Shown here: one piece after another, positions 1-51,655 of the stretch
Layout: each line of letters starts with the position of its first letter
How positions within the stretch are numbered: position 1 is the stretch's first letter
Assembly: GCA_949128115.1 (NCBI GenBank)
Contig: OX421964.1
Location: forward strand, 35,704,177-35,768,176
Reading direction: 5' to 3'
Length of the DNA stretch: 64,000 bases
DNA from: Anaspis maculata
Taxonomy: Eukaryota; Arthropoda; Insecta; Coleoptera; Scraptiidae
The notes under the pieces: model-generated
The model's database searches: none
What the model saw: the letters and a program-made list of their open reading frames with translations, nothing else
Told to the model about the DNA's origin: nothing
Position numbers and translations under genes: made by a program

Positions 1-3000
1 TCACCTCAGCCTTGCTTGAGCTTTGTCTCCAAGGACCTTAATTTTTTTTCTTAAATCTCTTTGTTTCCCTTCGGGCCGGACCGAAATGTTGACACTTATT
101 CCTCCGGAACTAGGGATAGCGCCATCGCAATTTTTTGTCAGGATTTCCTTTATAGTGTGTACTACCAACCCATCACCTCAGCATTGCTCGAGCTTAGTCT
201 CCAAGGACCTTAATTTTTTTTCTTCAATCTCTTTGTTACCCCTCGGGCCGGACCGAAATGTTGACACTAATTCCTCCGGAACTAGGGATAGCGCCATCGC
301 AATTTTATGTCAGGATTTTCTTTATAGTGTGTACTACCAACCCATCACCTCAGCCTTGCTTGAGCTTTGTCTCCAAGGACCTTAATTTTTTTTCTTCAAT
401 CTCTTTGTTACCCTTCGGGCCGGACCGAAATGTTGACACTTATTCCTCCGGAACTAGGGATAGCGCCATCGCAATTTTTTGTCAGGATTTCCTTTATAGT
501 GTGTACTACCAACCCATCACCTCAGCATTGCTCGAGCTTAGTCTCCAAGGACCTTAATTTTTTTTCTTCAATCTCTTTGTTACCCCTCGGGCCGGACCGA
601 AATGTTGACACTAATTCCTCCGGAACTAGGGATAGCGCCATCGCAATTTTTGTCAGGATTTTCTTTATAGTGTGTACTACCAATCCATCACCTCAGCATT
701 GCTCGAGCTTTGTCTCCAAGGACCTTAATTTTTTTTCTTAAATACCTTTGTTACCCTTCGGGCCGGACCGAAATGTTGACACTTATTCCTCCGGAACTAG
801 GGATAGCGCCATCGCAATTTTTTGTCAGGATTTCCTTTATAGTGTGTACTACCAACCCATCACCTCAGCATTGCTCGAGCTTTGTCTCCAAGGACCTTAA
901 TTTTTTTTCTTCAATCTCTTTGTTACCCCTCGGGCCGGACCGAAATGTTGACACTAATTCCTCCGGAACTAGGGATAGCGCCATCGCAATTTTTTGTCAG
1001 AATTTTCTTTATAGTGTGTACTACCAACCCATTACCTCAGCATTGCTCGAGCTTTGTCTCCAAGGACCTTAATTTTTTTTCTTAAATCTCTTTGTTACCC
1101 TTCGGGCCGGACCGAAATGTTGACACTTATTCCTCCGGAACTAGGGATAGCGCCATCGCAATTTTTTGTCAGGATTTCCTTTATAGTGTGTACTACCAAC
1201 CCATCACCTCAGCATTGCTCGAGCTTAGTCTCCAAGGACCTTAATTTTTTTTCTTCAATCTCTTTGTTACCCCTCGGGCCGGACCGAAATGTTAACACTA
1301 ATTCCTCCGGAACTAGGGATAGCGCCATCATACTTTTTTGTCAGGATTTTCTTTATAGTGTGTACTACCAACCCATCACCTCAGCCCTGCTTGAGCTTTG
1401 TCTCCAAGGACCTTAATTTTTTTTTTCAAATCTCTTTGTTACCCTTCGGGCCGGACCGAAATGTTGACACTTATTCCTCCGGAACTAGGGATAGCGCCAT
1501 CGCAATTTTTTGTCAGGATTTCCTTTATAGTGTGTACTACCAACCCATCACCTCAGCATTGCTCGAGCTTAGTCTCCAAGGACCTTAATTTTTTTTCTTC
1601 AATCTCTTTGTTACCCCTCGGGCCGGACCGAAATGTTGACACTAATTCCTCCGGAACTAGGGATAGCGCCATCGCAATTTTTTGTCAGGATTTTCTTTAT
1701 AGTGTGTACTACCAACCCATCACCTCAGCCTTGCTTGAGCTTTGTCTCCAAGGACCTTAATTTTTTTTCTTCAATCTCTTTGTTACCCTTCGGGCCGGAC
1801 CGAAATGTTGACACTAATTCCTCCGGAACTAGGGATTGCGCCATCGCAATTTTTTGTCAGGATTTTCTTTATAGTGTGTACTACCAATCCATCACCTCAG
1901 CATTGCTCGAGCTTTGTCTCCAAGGACCTTAATTTTTTTTCTTAAATCTCTTTGTTACCCTTCGGGCCGGACCGAAATGTTGACACTTATTCCTCCGGAA
2001 CTAGGGATAGCGCCATCGCAATTTTTTGTCAGGATTTCCTTTATAGTGTGTACTACCAACCCATCACCTCAGCATTGCTCGAGCTTTGTCTCCAAGGACC
2101 TTAATTTTTTTTCTTCAATCTCTTTGTTACCCCTCGGGCCGGACCGAAATGTTGACACTTATTCCTCCGGAACTAGGGATAGCGCCATCGCAATTTTTTG
2201 TCAGAATTTTTTTATAGTGTGTACTACCAACTCATTACCTCAGCATTGCTCGAGCTTTGTCTCCAAGGACCTTAATTTTTTTTCTTAAATCTCTTTGTTA
2301 CCCTTCGGGCCGGACCGAAATGTTGACACTTATTCCTCCGGAACTAGGGATAGCGCCATCGCAATTTTTTGTCAGGATTTCTTTTATAGTGTGTACTACC
2401 AACCCATCATCTCAGCATTGCTCGAGCTTAGTCTCCAAGGACCTTAATTTTTTTTCTTCAATCTCTTTGTTACCCCTCGGGCCGGACCGAAATGTTGACA
2501 CTAATTCCTCCGGAACTAGGGATAGCGCCATCGCAATTTTTTGTCAGGATTTTCTTTATAGTGTGTACTACCAACCCATCACCTCAGCCTTGCTTGAGCT
2601 TTGTCTCCAAGGACCTTAATTTTTTTTCTTCAATCTCTTTGTTACCCTTCGGGCCGGACCGAAATGTTGACACTTATTCCTCCGGAACTAGGGATAGCGC
2701 CATCGCAATTTTTTGTCAGGATTTCCTTTATAGTGTGTACTACCAACCCATTGTCTCAGCATTGCTCGAGCTTAGTCTCCAAGGACCTTAATTTTTTTTC
2801 TTCAATCTCTTTGTTACCCCTCGGGCCGGACCGAAATGTTGACACTAATTCCTCCGGAACTAGGGATAGCGCCATCGCAATTTTTTGTCAGGATTTTCTT
2901 TATAGTGTGTACTACCAACCCATCACCTCAGCCTTGCTTGAGCTTTGTCTCCAAGGACCTTAATTTTTTTTCCTAAATCTCTTTGTTACCCTTCGGGCCG

Positions 3001-3654
3001 AACCGAAATGTTGACACTTATTCCTCCGGAACTAAAGATAGCGCCATCGCAATTTTTTGTCAGGATTTCCTTTATAGTGTGTACTACCAACCCATCACCT
3101 CAGCATTGCTCGAGCTTAGTCTCCAAGGACCTTAATTTTTTTTCTTCAATCTCTTTGTTACCCCTCGGGCCGGACCGAAGTGTTGACACTAATTCCTCCG
3201 GAACTAGGGATAGCGCCATCGCAATTTTTTGTCAGGATTTTCTTTATAGTGTGTACTACCAACCCATCACCTCAGCCTTGCTTGAGCTTTGTCTCCAAGG
3301 ACCTTAATTTTTTTTCTTCAATCTCTTTGTTACCCCTCGGGCCGGACCGAAATGTTGACACTAATTCCTCCGGAACTAGGGATAGCGCCATCGCAATTTT
3401 TTGTCAGGATTTTCTTTATAGTGTGTACTACCAACCCATCACCTCAGCCTTGCTTGAGCTTTGTCTCCAAGGACCTTAATTTTTTTTCTTCAATCTCTTT
3501 GTTACCCCTCGGGCCGGACCGAAATGTTGACACTAATTCCTCCGGAACTAGGGATAGCGCCATCGCAATTTTTTGTCAGGATTTTCTTTATAGTGTGTAC
3601 TACCAACCCATCACCTCAGCATTGCTCGAGCTTTGTCTCCAAGGACTGGAGACA
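1..3654. repeat. 172-bp satellite array (about 21 monomers, array edge)
   Basis: The anchor CTCCAAGGAC recurs at 27, 199, 371, 543, 714, 886, 1058, 1230, 1402, 1574, 1746, 1918, 2090, 2261, 2433, 2605, 2777, 2949, 3121, 3293, 3465 and 3637. That is 21 periods, nineteen of 172 bp and two of 171 bp. Two monomer classes alternate for most of the array. Class A has CTTATT, GGATTTCC and usually GAGCTTAG; class B has CTAATT, GGATTTTC and usually GAGCTTTG. The array is cut by the left window edge and stops at about 3645. Every frame through it is open for 60-136 codons only because the unit repeats; I see no gene. Monomer length is close to a nucleosome repeat, as in many centromeric or heterochromatic satellites. 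Confidence 0.98.
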
Positions 3655-24510: not shown

Positions 24511-24589
24511 TCAAATCCTTAAAAGTACCTTTTTGGAGATTTGGTAACGATGTCCTCTACAAGCATGTTTCCAGGTTAAATTCCTGAAT

Positions 24590-25534
24590 TAGCACGTGAC
24601 ACCGAAGAGTGGAAGATAGTAGTTCCGAAAGAGTGCAGAACTACGCTGATAGAGCCTATTCATAACAAGTATGGACATCAGGGTACCTTTAAAACCTATT
24701 GGAGGATTTTACAATTTTACTACTGGCCAAAAATGCGCCAGGATGTTGCCAAATTTGTTCGGTCATGTCTACCCTGTGCGCAAGCTAAGCCTGAACAGAT
24801 AGCTGCTGCGGGTTTTCTGGGAGAAAGACCTGTTGCAAGCCAACCCTGGGAGGTAATCAGCTTAGATATTATGAGTCCTTTGCCCAAGAGTCAGTATGGT
24901 TATGCATACATTTTGGTTATCACCGATCCTTTCAGTAAATGTCCGCTGATTCTACCTTCGCACCAGGCTAACGCTAATGCCTTATGCCGACATTTGGAAG
25001 AGGATGTGTTTCACGTGTTTAAGGTACCGCGAGTAATTGTTTGTGATAACGGCGTACAAATGAAATCGCGCAAGTTTTCTGACCTTCTAGAGAACTATAA
25101 GGTCCAGGCGTTTTTCACTCCGTTGTATTGTCCCCGACCGGACCCAACCGAGCGCGTGAACCGTGTAATCAAAACGATGTTCAAAACCTTTGTGAAAGGG
25201 AATCATTCCCAATGGGCGACAAATCTTTCCGCTGTAGGTTGCGCCATAAGATCCGATCGCCATGAGACAACTCAAGGGACGCCTTCCAAAGTGACTTTCG
25301 GACGCGAGTATATTCCTCTAGGTACTTGGCGTAAGAGTGATTCAGATAATCCTTTCAAAGGGACGAAGCGTCAATTGGGAATGCGGAAGCTCTTCGAAAA
25401 GGTGAAGTCCCGCATTGCTAATTCCCACGAAAAGAGCAAAATTCATTACAACCTCCGACATAGGTTAGTCAAGTATTCCGTTGACGATCTGGTTTTGCGA
25501 AAAAATGGTCAAATCAGACGCTTCAAATAAGTTT
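24590..25534 (+). pseudogene. Gypsy integrase, 5' part (interrupted by a non-LTR insertion)
   Basis: The zinc-binding N-terminus begins near 24,650 (IHNKYGHQG) and is completed by CLPC. From the ATG at 24,733 a 265-codon frame runs uninterrupted. It holds the catalytic core with D45 (LDIMSPLP), D105 (VCDNG) and E140 (TERVNR), a spacing normal for Gypsy integrases. The frame ends near 25,528 in LVLRKNGQ-type C-terminal sequence, shortly before the point where an antisense non-LTR retrotransposon inserted. A one-base frameshift lies just before the insertion. The rest of the integrase resumes at 27,416. The core triad is intact, but the gene as a whole is split. Confidence 0.92.
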
Positions 25535-25535
25535 T

Positions 25536-27415
25536 AATAATAATAAATAATAATAATCGTTTATTGTGAACTTATCGAAAGTTATACACTTGTCAAGTGA
25601 AGGAGGAACACGAGGTTGGAACTGAAACAAGCAACCCCAACAAACAGCAAACTGTGCTGATAAATAAGTACACAATATTGTAAACAATAACGGACAAAGT
25701 TTTTGTGCAGCATACGCACTTACAACAAATTGAAACAATCACTCAATCAAATCTGAGTCTGAGTCAAGATACTCGTCGCAAGAATAAAACGCATTATCAA
25801 GAAGAAATCTCTTGATATTTCTCTTGAAGTTTGAGACAGGCAAAACTCTGACCCTCTCAGGGAGCTTATTGAAAAATTTTACCGCCCAGTAATTGCTGCC
25901 CATCCAAGACCTGGTGAGTCGAAGAGATGGTTGGCGCAAAGCATCTTTGCCTCTTGTAACATGTACATGAAAATCGGAGTTTACCGGAAACACAGACAAA
26001 TTATTTTAGATATAAAGGAGGCACTGGAGAATATACAAACAAGGCAGGGTCATGATTTGTTCTCTTACAAAATAAGGTCTGCACTCATCCCTGTAGCCAA
26101 TACCTGCAATAACTCGGAGGGCCCTTCGCTGAAGGCGAAAGACGTCAGTCTTCATAGACGAATGTCTCCAAACGATCAACGCGTAAGTCAGGTGAGTTTC
26201 AATTAGAGAACAGTTAGCGATGCGCAGTACAGAGCCCGACACACATCCAGACAAACTCCTTGACAAATAAATCTGCCTAGACAGTTTTCCAGTAGGAACA
26301 GTGCCATAATGGTCCCACAAAAGACCTGAGTCAATATGCAGCTCCAAAAACTTTGCGGTCTCGCTGTAGTCATCTGCATGTACTCTGTTTAGTGTATAAA
26401 GAACAGTAGTGGATTTTTCGTTGTTCAGACTTAATCGATTCGAGGTAAACCACCGCTCCGCCACCCGACGCATCTCCGTATCCATGTCGACAGCGTCCCC
26501 GAACCTCTCAGCCGAGGTAAACAAAACCGTATCATCAGCAAACAACCGTATCACTCCAGCGTCTGAGAAAGGCAACTCATTCACGTAAATGAGAAAAAGT
26601 GTAGGCCCGAGGATAGATCCCTGCGGAACCCCATGTCCGATGGGGAGCGACGAAGACGAAGCCGAGGCGGACTGAGTACGCCCGCTAAGATAAGATGATA
26701 TTAATCTACAAGCACTGGGGTGGACGTTATAAAAGTAAAGCTTGCGCAGCGGAACCGAGTGAGAAACACAATCGAAAGCCTTTCCGACGTCAAGAAACGT
26801 GGTCATACCACAATTTCCCTCCTCGAACCCCTCCACCAGGTCCTCGACAAAGTCCACCAATGCCTGCGACGTTGATCTGCCACGCCTGAAACCATACTGC
26901 CTATCCGAAAAAAGGTTATTAGCCTCGAAGTGGGAGATCAGTTGGTAGTTCATAATTTTCTCAATGATCTTAGAAAAGACTGGCAGTATGGAGATGGGTC
27001 GGTAATTGTTGGGATCCGCGGCGCAACCACTCTTATTCTTGAGAACGGGTATCACTAAGGCTCTCTTGAGACAGTCAGGAAAAACGCCAGATGTTAAACA
27101 CAAATTTATGAGCCTGGTAAGAGGGACAAGGATTGGGTCAATAACAGTCTTTAGAATCTCGACACTCAACCCAAAGACGTCCCTAGACCTGCTATTTTTC
27201 AGCCCAGACACCACATCGCGAACCCTCGAGCAAGACACCTCCTCAAACCGAAAATAATTCGCAGACCCTAAGGACGATTTCAAATTTACGTTGTCAGCCA
27301 TCATTTGCACCGGATCAACCGACGCCGGAGGTAATCTGCCAAGCAAGTCATCAGCAATGCCGGTGAAGAAAACATTCAGGTCATCAGGAGAAACAGTCAG
27401 ACCATAAAGTTTTGC
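25536..27415 (-). mobile_element. Jockey/CR1-like non-LTR retrotransposon, 5'-truncated, nested in Gypsy
   Basis: AAGTTTT at 25,529-25,535 is repeated at 27,416-27,422 and flanks the element as a candidate 7-bp target duplication. The element is on the minus strand. Its 3' end is a tract of AAT/ATT repeats (plus strand 25,536-25,557) rather than poly(A), as in several I/Jockey/CR1-group elements. It starts inside ORF2, so the 5' end is truncated. The flanking Gypsy integrase C-terminal coding sequence continues on both sides. Confidence 0.85.
25739..27415 (-). pseudogene. Non-LTR reverse transcriptase, nearly intact (one in-frame stop)
   Basis: An open frame of 510 codons ends at 26,006; the first about 41 codons are antisense Gypsy sequence, so the real coding begins near 27,415. 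RT blocks are in order: NNYRPISILPVFSKIIEKI (about 177-195), QYGFRRGRSTSQA (214-226), LDVGKAFD (249-256), GVPQGSILGP (303-312) and catalytic FADD (333-336). The C-terminal HLTYALIVW and LQRRALRVIAG blocks follow. A single TAA at 26,006-26,008 interrupts the frame. The same frame then continues to 25,739 through NYWAVKFFNKLPERV and LLDNAFYSCDEYLD, the normal end of this group. Apart from that stop no frameshift is visible, so this copy is much younger than the RT relic at 22.7-24 kb. The endonuclease domain is missing. Confidence 0.92.
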
Positions 27416-27590
27416 AAGTTTTGTGCAAAACTTGCTGAAAAGAATGTAGGACCTTTCCGAATAGTAGAAGTTCTTGGTCAGGCAACCTATCGATTGGTAG
27501 ACATTGATGGTTGACATGCTAGAGTCAGAGCCTGGCATGTTTCAGACCTCCGACCTGCTCCGACTTCCAGACAACAGAAAATTTCAAGAT
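27416..27590 (+). pseudogene. Gypsy integrase C-terminus, continuation after the insertion
   Basis: The plus-strand frame encodes AEKNVGPFRIVEVLGQATYR followed by LVDIDG and, after one stop, WHVSDLRPAP. This is the chromo-like GPF/Y module and the HVxDL motif that close Gypsy integrases. It continues the frame that is interrupted at 25,535. It confirms that 25,536-27,415 is an insertion into an older Gypsy gene. Confidence 0.85.
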
Positions 27591-48119: not shown

Positions 48120-48236
48120 TTGGTAGGCGAAAAATGAATTCTGTCACCAGAAGAGATTCATATCTCCTCTCTCGAGTCGACAGAATCCTCAGTATGCTAC
48201 GTGATGTCAAGTTCCTCTCTTCAATAGATCTACGAA
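48120..48236 (+). pseudogene. Gypsy reverse transcriptase, 5' part (interrupted by a TIR element)
   Basis: The frame encodes KMNSVTRRDSYLLSRVDRIL followed by MLRDVKFLSSIDL. This is the RT segment between the RKLNxxTxxDxYPLP block and the DLRSAFWQI block of Ty3/Gypsy elements. It stops exactly where the element at 48,237 begins and resumes at 51,440. The GAA at 48,234-48,236 is part of the apparent 3-bp target duplication. Confidence 0.88.
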
Positions 48237-48540
48237 TAGTACGTTGGGTAGGCAAGAAAAAGCTGCACATTTTGATTGGAATATGCCACCTACTATGATC
48301 ATAGATAGGACCACAACAAAGCTTTTTGGCAAGAGCGCCACTTGAAAATCCGTGCAGGAAACAAGATGGCGGCCTTCAAAGATGGGCACCACCTGTTTCT
48401 TGGAATTTTTTGTAATTCAGCTTCTAGCGGTCCGATTTCAATTTTCTTTTTTTTGTATAGGAGCCCTGCTTACGATGAAGCTCATTTGCTATCACAGTTT
48501 TTTTTTTGACATTGACAGTTTGTAAAATTTTGAAAAATCT
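48237..48540 (+). repeat. Left terminal inverted repeat of the 48.2-51.4-kb element
   Basis: Complementary to 51,122-51,439 with small indels; the first 14 bp match with one mismatch. Confidence 0.85.
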
Positions 48541-48959
48541 TATTATTCAACTGTTAGTTCTAATTCATTTCATTTATCAAACACGGCTTGATATACCTAT
48601 TAACATTAGCAGTTTCCTGATCACTTTACGGATGGAAGAACAGGTTCTACTCTCCGCCTATATAAAAAGTTTCACAAAACAGCGGCACATTTGTTGAAAA
48701 CACACCGAAGATAAAAGCAAAACTGTAAAAAGACTTGATAATGGTTTACATTTTTAGAGCAAAGAATACACGAATCGAATTTTGTAGCCATGTTTGCAGC
48801 TTTCCATATTGTGTAGGCTTTGCTTAAGGTCCTTGGCCAAGTTCTTGAAGGTAGTGGTTGGATTGAAGTAAGGGCAAACTCTGGAATAAATGCAGAAGCG
48901 GGGGCCGAGGCGTATGTTTCAAAGTCAAGAGCAATTCATCAGACTGCTGGTGTTTTATA

Positions 48960-50792
48960 GAATTTACTCAAAGATTCCTATAATTTACAAGATCATTCAG
49001 ATATCTCATTTGACGAGTGGGTTGAAAAAAAAACGTTCAAACTATCCAACTTTCCGTTTCTGGTTTTCAGTATTAAATTTGAAGGTACTTCTTTTGGCGT
49101 TTGTTTGGTCCATCAGAGATGGGAACTATGAACTGTTCATTCATGCATTGAAAGAGTTGACACCGTGGTTTTTCAAAACGGATCATCTCCACTATGCTCG
49201 TTAGTTGCCAATTCATATGAAAGACTTGAAGGAACTGAAAGTTGAAGCACCAAGTGTTCACGAGCAAAACTATCAGCGGCCATCGGCTGTATTCTCCCAG
49301 TGCTCCAGCTTGTCACTCTATTTTTGCTCCAAAAAGTCATTCTACTGGAAATAGAAAGTGTATGGGATATATTTTATGTAGAAGAACGTTCAAGTACAGA
49401 GGCAAAAGTCAGTATGTTTGCTCCACTACGAAAAACTGGCACAAAAGTTTTTGAATTTGCTCGCCAAAAAGTCCTCTCACCCACGATTTCTGATTTAAAA
49501 AATGACGTCCAGCGGTTCTCTAGGGCTTTTATCGTAAGCCAAAACAGAGACATGGATTTAAAAAAAAAATTTGAACACGACAATACGAGTGCACCGCCGT
49601 CGCTTTCCTCAAATGGTGTTTTGCGAACATCTCAGAAGTCACAGCTTCTCAAAATCCTGGAACAAACCGTTGATCAATCACAGTTCCATGGATTCTGTGA
49701 CACAATAATTTATGACGGAGCAGCACTAGCACATGCTCTACCATCGAAAACATCACAGACAATTAGTCTATATTGTGACACTGAATTCAAAAACAGGATG
49801 ATTCATGATACCTACTGAAAAGTTCCATGCAAGTAGGATACACATTTTGTGGGATATTTACCACAAAACCAGCCTGAAGAGATTCGTGAGAGAGAAAAGA
49901 GGCTCTGGTATTCGTCGCCATGCAGCTAAAGAGAATGTGTTGCCAAAGAATTGGAATGATTTTCTTGCTGCGATGAAAACAAAATAAAACTGTTCAAGCT
50001 ACTTGGACAACATGCTCTTTTGAAATTTGGTTGCGCACATATTGTTACAAAAACGTAGGCAACAGGAAGAAGCAGATGGCAGAATATTGCTCGATGCCAA
50101 AGATAGTGTCGAACAAGGAGCAACGAAAATTATGATCTGTACAGTAGACACTGACGTAGTCGTTTTGGCAATATCTTTTTTCCAAACTCTGGAAAATGCT
50201 GTACAGGAGATGTGGATAATTTTTGGATCAGGAGAAGCCCAAAGATAAATGAACATCAACGCCATGGCAGAAAGAATGGGTGAATAAAGAACTGTTGCCT
50301 TGAGATGTTTCCATGCATTCAGAGGTTCAGATATAACATCGTCATTTGCAATGAAGGGTAAATAACAAACCGCCTGGAATGTATGGAAGTCCTTTCCTGA
50401 AGCGACGAAAGCATTTGGAGCCATATCTCTACCACAACAATCCATTTCCGATAAAACATTGAAGCTCTTGAAAAGTTTGTTGTCCTGCTCTACCACAAAG
50501 GTGCCCAAAATTTTCCGTCAATCATAAGAGAAAGCTTCTTTTTACAACGAAAAGTCACAATCTTCAAAACCTCCCTCCAACGAAAGAAGCACTTAGTTCA
50601 GTTAGGCAGCATGCGCTAAGGTCTGCATATCAAGCAGGACAAAGTCTGGGGCAGAGTCTGAGGGCGTGAGTACTCTACGACGGAAATCATTCCAGAACCA
50701 AACGGATGGGGATGGACTATGATTGCAAGGGAGTGGACGCCGGTTTGGTCTTGTCTAGAACTAATTTGGGCAGCTTGTCGGGAGCTGGTGTA
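48960..50792 (+). pseudogene. Decayed transposon-borne PIN/FEN-like nuclease gene (EEAD...DTD...GSD family)
   Basis: Seen in order on the plus strand, with frameshifts between: WSIRDGNYELFIHALKELTP and DHLHYAR (49,110-49,204); LKNDVQRFSRAFIVSQNRD and PPSLSSNGVLRTSQKSQLL (49,495-49,655); IIYDGAALAHALPSK (49,700-49,750); WDIYHKTSLKRFVREKRGSG, then LPKNWNDFL (49,850-49,970); EEADGRILLDAKDSVEQG (from 50,066) and TVDTDVVVLA (from 50,141); FHAFRGSDITSSF (50,308-50,346); SLPQQSISDKTLKLL (about 50,425-50,470); and WGWTMIAREWTPVWSCLELI with ACRELV ending at a stop (to about 50,793). This block order matches a large, unnamed family found in many copies in insects, cnidarians and molluscs. Known family members end in a CXC cysteine cluster, not recognisable here. 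The EEAD, DTD and G-[CS]-D motifs resemble the metal-binding acidic residues of XPG/FEN (PIN-like) nucleases; that function is my inference. Several stops and frameshifts make this copy dead. Confidence 0.82.
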
Positions 50793-51121
50793 ATGCAGCG
50801 TTCGGTTGCTCTTTCAGGAAGGAATTAGGAGAAGGTAATGGAGAAGACGAGGTGCTAGAGTCCGAATGAGAGAAATTCAGACCTATGTATTTATTTTTAT
50901 TGAAACCTATTCCAAATTCCATAAAATTGTTTAGACATCAAAAACACGTCTATTCCCATTTAATTACCTGAAGCTTTTTTTTTTCATTTTCACTCTATTC
51001 ACAGAGGGAAGAGTTTCAGGAACCAGAAACCGTTCTTTCTTCTATACAATGATCATCAGAAGCAATGAAGTGCACGAGAAATACACACATGTTAACCATT
51101 TCAATAAGTGAAGCAAAATAT

Positions 51122-51439
51122 TTCTATTTCCAAATATTACGAAACTGTAGATGTCAAAAGGAAAATGTGTGATGGCAGATAAGCTTAGCCTTCAGCAGGG
51201 TTTTATGAACAAAAAGAAAGGAAATTGAAATCGGACCGCTAGATGGTGAAAAACCACAAATTACAAAAAACAGGTGGTGCCCATCTTTGAAGCCCGCCAT
51301 CTTGTTTCCTGCACCGATTTTTAAGTGGCGCTGTTGCCAAAAAACTTTGTTCTGACCTTATCTATGATCATAGCAAGCGGCATACTCCAATCAAAATGTG
51401 CAGCTTTTTGGTTTAATTTAATGTGTACCCGACGTACTA
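51122..51439 (-). repeat. Right terminal inverted repeat of the 48.2-51.4-kb element
   Basis: Inverse of 48,237-48,540. The sequence between the end of the coding relic (about 50,793) and this repeat shows no further conserved block. Confidence 0.85.
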
Positions 51440-51655
51440 GAAGTGCATTTTGGCAAATTCTGTTGTATCAGGAGAGTAAAAAAAAGGCTTCTGGACTCTT
51501 TGGCTGAGGTTCCTTCCATTTCAAAGTGCTACCGTTTGGGTTGGCAAACGCCGCTCAAGCCCAACAGAGGCTCATGGACGCAGTGTTCGGACCAAAGCTG
51601 GAGTAAAAGATCTTTGCGTATCTAGTCAATATTACCGTTACATCTTTTAAATAAT
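51440..51655 (+). pseudogene. Gypsy reverse transcriptase, 3' part
   Basis: The frame resumes at RSAFWQI and runs on through SFHFKVLPFGLANAAQAQQR, LMDAVFGPKLE, and FAYLVNITV. The catalytic YLDD box reads YLVN here, so the RT is dead. Stops follow the KASGLFG and GPKLE segments. The match between the end of the 48,120-48,236 fragment and this start shows that the intervening 3.2 kb is an insertion. Confidence 0.9.

Follow-up and report, generated by a model that had tools for sequence, protein, structure and literature searches.

What kind of transposon lies at positions 48237-51439 of a 64,000-nucleotide stretch of the Anaspis maculata genome (contig OX421964.1; hereafter, the window), and which protein moves it? 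A sequence-only reading had proposed an undescribed lineage whose transposase is a PIN/FEN-like nuclease. We find that this 3,203-bp element is highly likely to be a defective, internally deleted transposon with long terminal inverted repeats (TIRs) of the Academ superfamily, lineage AcademX, where it is placed by its features, Academ being known to us by description only. It is not a new superfamily, and the term "undescribed lineage" is very probably wrong at that level.

The element ends in TAGTACGTYGGGTA, which has exact matches in the window only at the two outer element ends (with up to three mismatches there are 6 matches versus 4.7 expected). The outermost 14 bases are TAGTACGTTGGGTA (from 48237, plus strand) and TAGTACGTCGGGTA (from 51439, minus strand). 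Local alignment of the left TIR arm (48257-48535) with the reverse complement of the right arm (51127-51409) gave a score of 334, compared to at most 27 in 50 shuffles. The exact 3-bp sequence GAA is found on both sides of the element, while a 4-bp target-site duplication does not fit. The boundaries given by the sequence-only reading are exact to the base, and its long TIRs and GAA duplication are confirmed by the alignment score and by both flanks.

The insertion is held by a decayed retroelement, whose reverse-transcriptase frame is carried on from one flank to the other. Joining the flanks, with the element and one GAA removed, yields the reverse-transcriptase motif VDRILSMLRDVKFLSSIDLRSAFWQILLYQES, which aligns gap-free to chain 8r0s_A, annotated as "Enzymatic polyprotein" (E 0.0005); the remaining 14 rows of this search are colicin E7 entries (E 0.46-0.81) and look like chance. 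The match of the joined flank to Pfam RVT_1 is weak (E 0.14), and the joined flank that keeps both GAA copies, where the frame is also intact, has no Pfam match. The joined flank is thus evidence, without recourse to the TIRs, for both boundaries and for the 3-bp duplication.

The host genome (757.8 Mb, 50 contigs) was searched with both TIRs, and duplications were tabulated, as the sequence-only reading had suggested. Forty of 117 left-TIR candidates (88-100% identical) and 40 of 183 right-TIR candidates were scored as matches, both being lower bounds. Thirty-one of the 40 left matches pair with a right match no more than 15 kb away, and nine have no right partner within this distance among the 40 right matches listed. 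Fourteen of the 31 pairs, the window copy among them, are 3,162-3,262 bp long. With the window copy excluded, an exact 3-bp duplication was present in 24 of 30 pairs, compared to 28 of 870 cross-paired control flanks; exact duplications of 4 to 10 bp were found in none of the 30.

Compared by tblastn with P0128, a homologue of 1,524 amino acids, the window copy covers only residues ~680-853 and ~1003-1501. Missing from it are the N-terminal part, the catalytic positions 481 and 660 and the block that contains the third one (DQAHEQ, 877-882, P0128 numbering). What is left changes frame repeatedly, and four of its five aligned stretches contain stops. The window copy is therefore an internally deleted, broken transposon copy, a deletion that had been missed before; the EEAD, DTD, G-S-D and WGW...ACREL blocks noticed earlier in its decayed open reading frame are all there, spread over shifting frames. 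The Cys-rich tail of the relatives is not recognisable in it, and a Pfam scan of five window pieces returned nothing below E 0.1. Coordinates are collected in Table 1.

Table 1. Features of the element and its insertion site (window positions)
Feature	Position	Strand	Evidence
Left flank, reverse-transcriptase remnant of the decayed retroelement holding the insertion	48176-48236	+	
Left target-site duplication GAA	48234-48236		
Left TIR, end TAGTACGTTGGGTA	48237-48535	+	arm alignment, end matches, host-genome matches
Decayed transposase-domain remnant downstream of the second catalytic position (P0128 680-853), frames 1 and 2	48772-49258	+	tblastn
Internal-deletion stretch; P0128 ~854-1002 missing, including the third catalytic residue (E of DQAHEQ)	49259-49374	+	
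Open stretch, P0128 1003-1143; first XPG acidic motif YDGAA at 49711-49725	49375-49815	+	
Decayed XPG/FEN-like nuclease domain: LWDIY 49847, EEAD 50066, VDTDV 50144, GSD 50324	49820-50524	+	tblastn; intact-homologue fold
C-terminal WGW...ACREL block	50662-50790	+	
Right TIR, end TAGTACGTCGGGTA	51127-51439	-	arm alignment, end matches, host-genome matches
Right target-site duplication GAA	51440-51442		
Right flank, same reverse-transcriptase frame carried on	51443-51477	+	

A genome-wide protein search retrieved the same gap (~94 to 232 of homologue P0004) in other TIR-bearing copies (C38, C1:63.87 Mb, C5:1.76 Mb and C4:4.62 Mb). Since the gap is shared, a single shortened form probably gave rise to these copies and to the window copy. 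One sister copy, L116 (2,965 bp, duplication ACA), combines window-type TIRs with a deletion different from that of the window copy: P0128 residues 680-982 are kept, among them VVDQSHEQ (a stop lies close by), and no nuclease part was found in it by tblastn. Taken together, the deletions of L116 and of the window copy show that both parts of the protein were once present in this TIR family.

In intact proteins of the family, a distinct DDE RNase-H-type domain precedes the nuclease. The D, D and E are found there in 46 of 47 aligned proteins of at least 1,400 amino acids, and the acidic residues of the nuclease are nearly invariant across the alignment. In a predicted model over 400 amino acids, this domain has a DDE transposase fold by VIA-align. 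An XPG/FEN fold is supported for the part visible in the window copy by the modelled fold of an intact homologue, which bears out the resemblance pointed out before. The Cys/His motifs at the N terminus look zinc-binding by eye. Among the Pfam matches of 18 homologues there was no helicase, and DUF6589 exceeded the cut-off in two of the 18 (ten of which are partial, 556-920 amino acids); a literature search on DUF6589/PF20231 found nothing relevant. NCBIfam returned, for eight homologues, only matches far below curated cut-offs (best E 0.005), among them a single match to RQC-minor-2 (E 0.17). Exo1, FEN1 and XPG differ in that the nuclease here is part of a transposon protein, and a profile search of PDB sequences gave no match at E <= 1.

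Full-length relatives are present in the same genome. Seven copies, sharing ~32% identity with P0004, are distributed over contigs C1 (three), C6, C7 and C9 (two). They are 6,782 bp long (L035, 6,783 bp), start with TAGTAGAGGAAAA at their ends and, compared with L032, include four identical copies, one with a single mismatch (L034) and one with a mismatch and a gap (L035). An exact 3-bp duplication of its own flanks every copy (TAA, TAT, TTA, TAT, ATA, TAA and ATA), and none of the seven has a 4-bp one. A frame of 1,524 amino acids with DNID, FDQ, DQALE and the nuclease motifs is open in six; the longest frame of L035 is 993 amino acids. These nearly identical intact relatives must have moved recently. 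All seven duplications of this young 6.8-kb family (L030-L036 with L041-L047) consist of A and T only, and those of the older window family include GCG, AGC and CCA. Two single copies with ends placed by eye are L013 (1,433 amino acids, ends TAGTCCGGTGG, duplication ATT) and L113 (1,529 amino acids, ends TAGGCGAGCGG, duplication TAA). Intact copies thus carry TIRs and duplications around a full reading frame, and the proposal that the reading frame belongs to a TIR element holds.

The features agree with what is described for AcademX. AcademX is described as the lineage of Academ that encodes a nuclease and makes duplications of 3 or 4 bp, AcademH as its helicase-encoding sister lineage with duplications of 9 or 10 bp, and Kojima notes that this difference in length seems tied to the encoded helicase or nuclease (PMC10045372). 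The iMITEdb paper gives 3-bp duplications for Academ (PMC5199201), and a study of bivalves classes Academ among the DDE/D elements, with copies averaging 5,565 bp (PMC10294476). The claim that no named superfamily has such a transposase is very probably wrong in view of the AcademX description (PMC10045372). Our family encodes a nuclease and, among the Pfam matches above, no helicase; it makes 3-bp duplications (GAA in the window, 24 of 30 other pairs, all seven young copies), is several kb long, and has a DDE fold with conserved D, D and E, the Academ type being known by description. By description only, we found no difference from AcademX. AcademH, with its helicase and 9- or 10-bp duplications, was rejected, since duplications here are 3 bp in 24 of 30 pairs and 4 to 10 bp in none. 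P element transposase (6pe2) is not known to have an XPG domain. The P superfamily was rejected because the P element is described as making 7-8-bp duplications, compared to 3 bp here. Termini of CACTA/EnSpm (CMC) elements begin with CACTA or CACTG; those found here begin with TAGTA, TAGTC or TAGGC, and this assignment was rejected as well.

Several points weigh against this placement. The name AcademX was given by features and not by comparison with an Academ reference sequence. We take the AcademX nuclease to be of the XPG type, and our literature search found no paper, among those covered, that names both Academ and XPG as whole words; a looser search gave five papers with titles on other topics. 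The DDE assignment comes from VIA-align on a predicted model, with middling Z values for Hermes and RAG1. Foldseek returned no significant match for the DDE domain alone (best E 0.82, unrelated; RAG1 2.7) and none at E 0.001 for the whole model (best Xrn1, 0.0019, and T5 flap endonuclease, 0.008). Six of the 30 pairs have no exact duplication at the computed ends: the right end of L074/L075 is truncated, the match of L078/L079 ends two bases short (the flanks read TAT/TAT if the end is placed there), and there is one mismatch in L084/L085, two in L050/L051 and three in both L088/L089 and L106/L107. Among loci compared, no intact copy is near the window subfamily (best 55%, one segment). Of the copies with long reading frames, L112 (1,530 amino acids) shows no clear duplication, and the ends of L038/L039 (1,654 amino acids) could not be placed; L038 and L039 are similar, with few differences, far beyond the reading frame, and one larger duplication, as opposed to two insertions, may account for them. 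Lastly, among molluscs Academ is nearly restricted to bivalves, according to PMC10294476, yet a limpet protein, P0142, is a relative.

A DDE-plus-XPG superfamily related to, yet separate from, Academ would fit the comparison having been made by description rather than by sequence, and also the scarcity of DUF6589 above cut-off. However, the 3-bp duplications, the nuclease in place of a helicase, the DDE transposase and the element length all match the published Academ/AcademX descriptions, and we regard this alternative as unlikely. Still less probable is an undescribed superfamily with the XPG/FEN nuclease itself as the transposase. The supported fold, the near-invariant acidic residues and the fact that the nuclease makes up most of the protein left in the window copy speak for it, but the upstream D, D, E with its DDE transposase fold speaks against it, and the recently moved copies carry this triad too. 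Nuclease as transposase was rejected on account of this domain, which the window copy has lost. In a third alternative, the reading frame would be a passenger captured by a TIR family that some other transposase mobilises. This might be suspected from the window-type copies, which are defective and shorter than intact relatives. Yet those relatives, with TIRs and duplications, hold DDE domain and nuclease in one open frame, and between TIRs of the window type lie two distinct deleted forms of this single protein; on both grounds the passenger was rejected as extremely improbable.

The intact transposon encodes a single protein of ~1,500 amino acids. Its N-terminal Cys/His motifs are followed by a central transposase domain of the DDE RNase-H type, which contains a helical insertion, then by the C-terminal XPG/FEN-like nuclease and finally by a Cys-rich tail. 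For this AcademX-type transposon, the following mechanism can be proposed. The DDE domain would cut the ends and join them to target DNA at a 3-bp stagger, which would account for the 3-bp duplication. The fused nuclease may trim or cut flaps or the second strand, at the element ends or in the target gap; this is the role that we favour. Window-type copies of ~3.2 kb, with their common internal deletion, would have been spread in trans by the intact transposase and then decayed. With seven insertions on four contigs, each at most two changes from one reference copy, it is conceivable, if somewhat doubtful, that an Academ-type transposon is active in the host now, or was so until very recently, and that its DDE domain depends on the fused flap nuclease for catalysis, for example for the second-strand cut. 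Experimental work on the Academ mechanism is not known to us, though no search for it was made.

In line with the sequence-only reading, the protein family is widespread in animals; no relatives were found in viral contigs. A relative of 1,445 amino acids (L001, JAJRVU010000273.1, 64-4401) lies on a contig binned as a Planctomycetota metagenome-assembled genome; there is no clear TIR at this locus (best arms 26 nt, 73% complementary), and the DNA is probably eukaryotic. A decayed family element (L002, NZ_CAHJWD020000426.1, 86-3367) in a Bathymodiolus symbiont assembly contig starts with TAGTAGGGTGCCC at both ends, with TTA on the flanks (read by eye), and is probably host (mussel) DNA. Elsewhere in the window there are a satellite array (1-3646; 172-bp unit, ~21 copies, 95% matches), an open frame of 316 amino acids (24580-25530) that by eye resembles a retroelement integrase, and one of 511 amino acids (26006-27541, minus strand) that by eye resembles a non-LTR reverse transcriptase.

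The finding corrects the idea of the nuclease as transposase. It also accounts for an animal protein family that is widespread and for the most part unnamed: its members are DDE transposases to which a flap nuclease is fused. The remaining interest lies in the nearly identical intact set, whose young copies provide material for testing the role of the nuclease.
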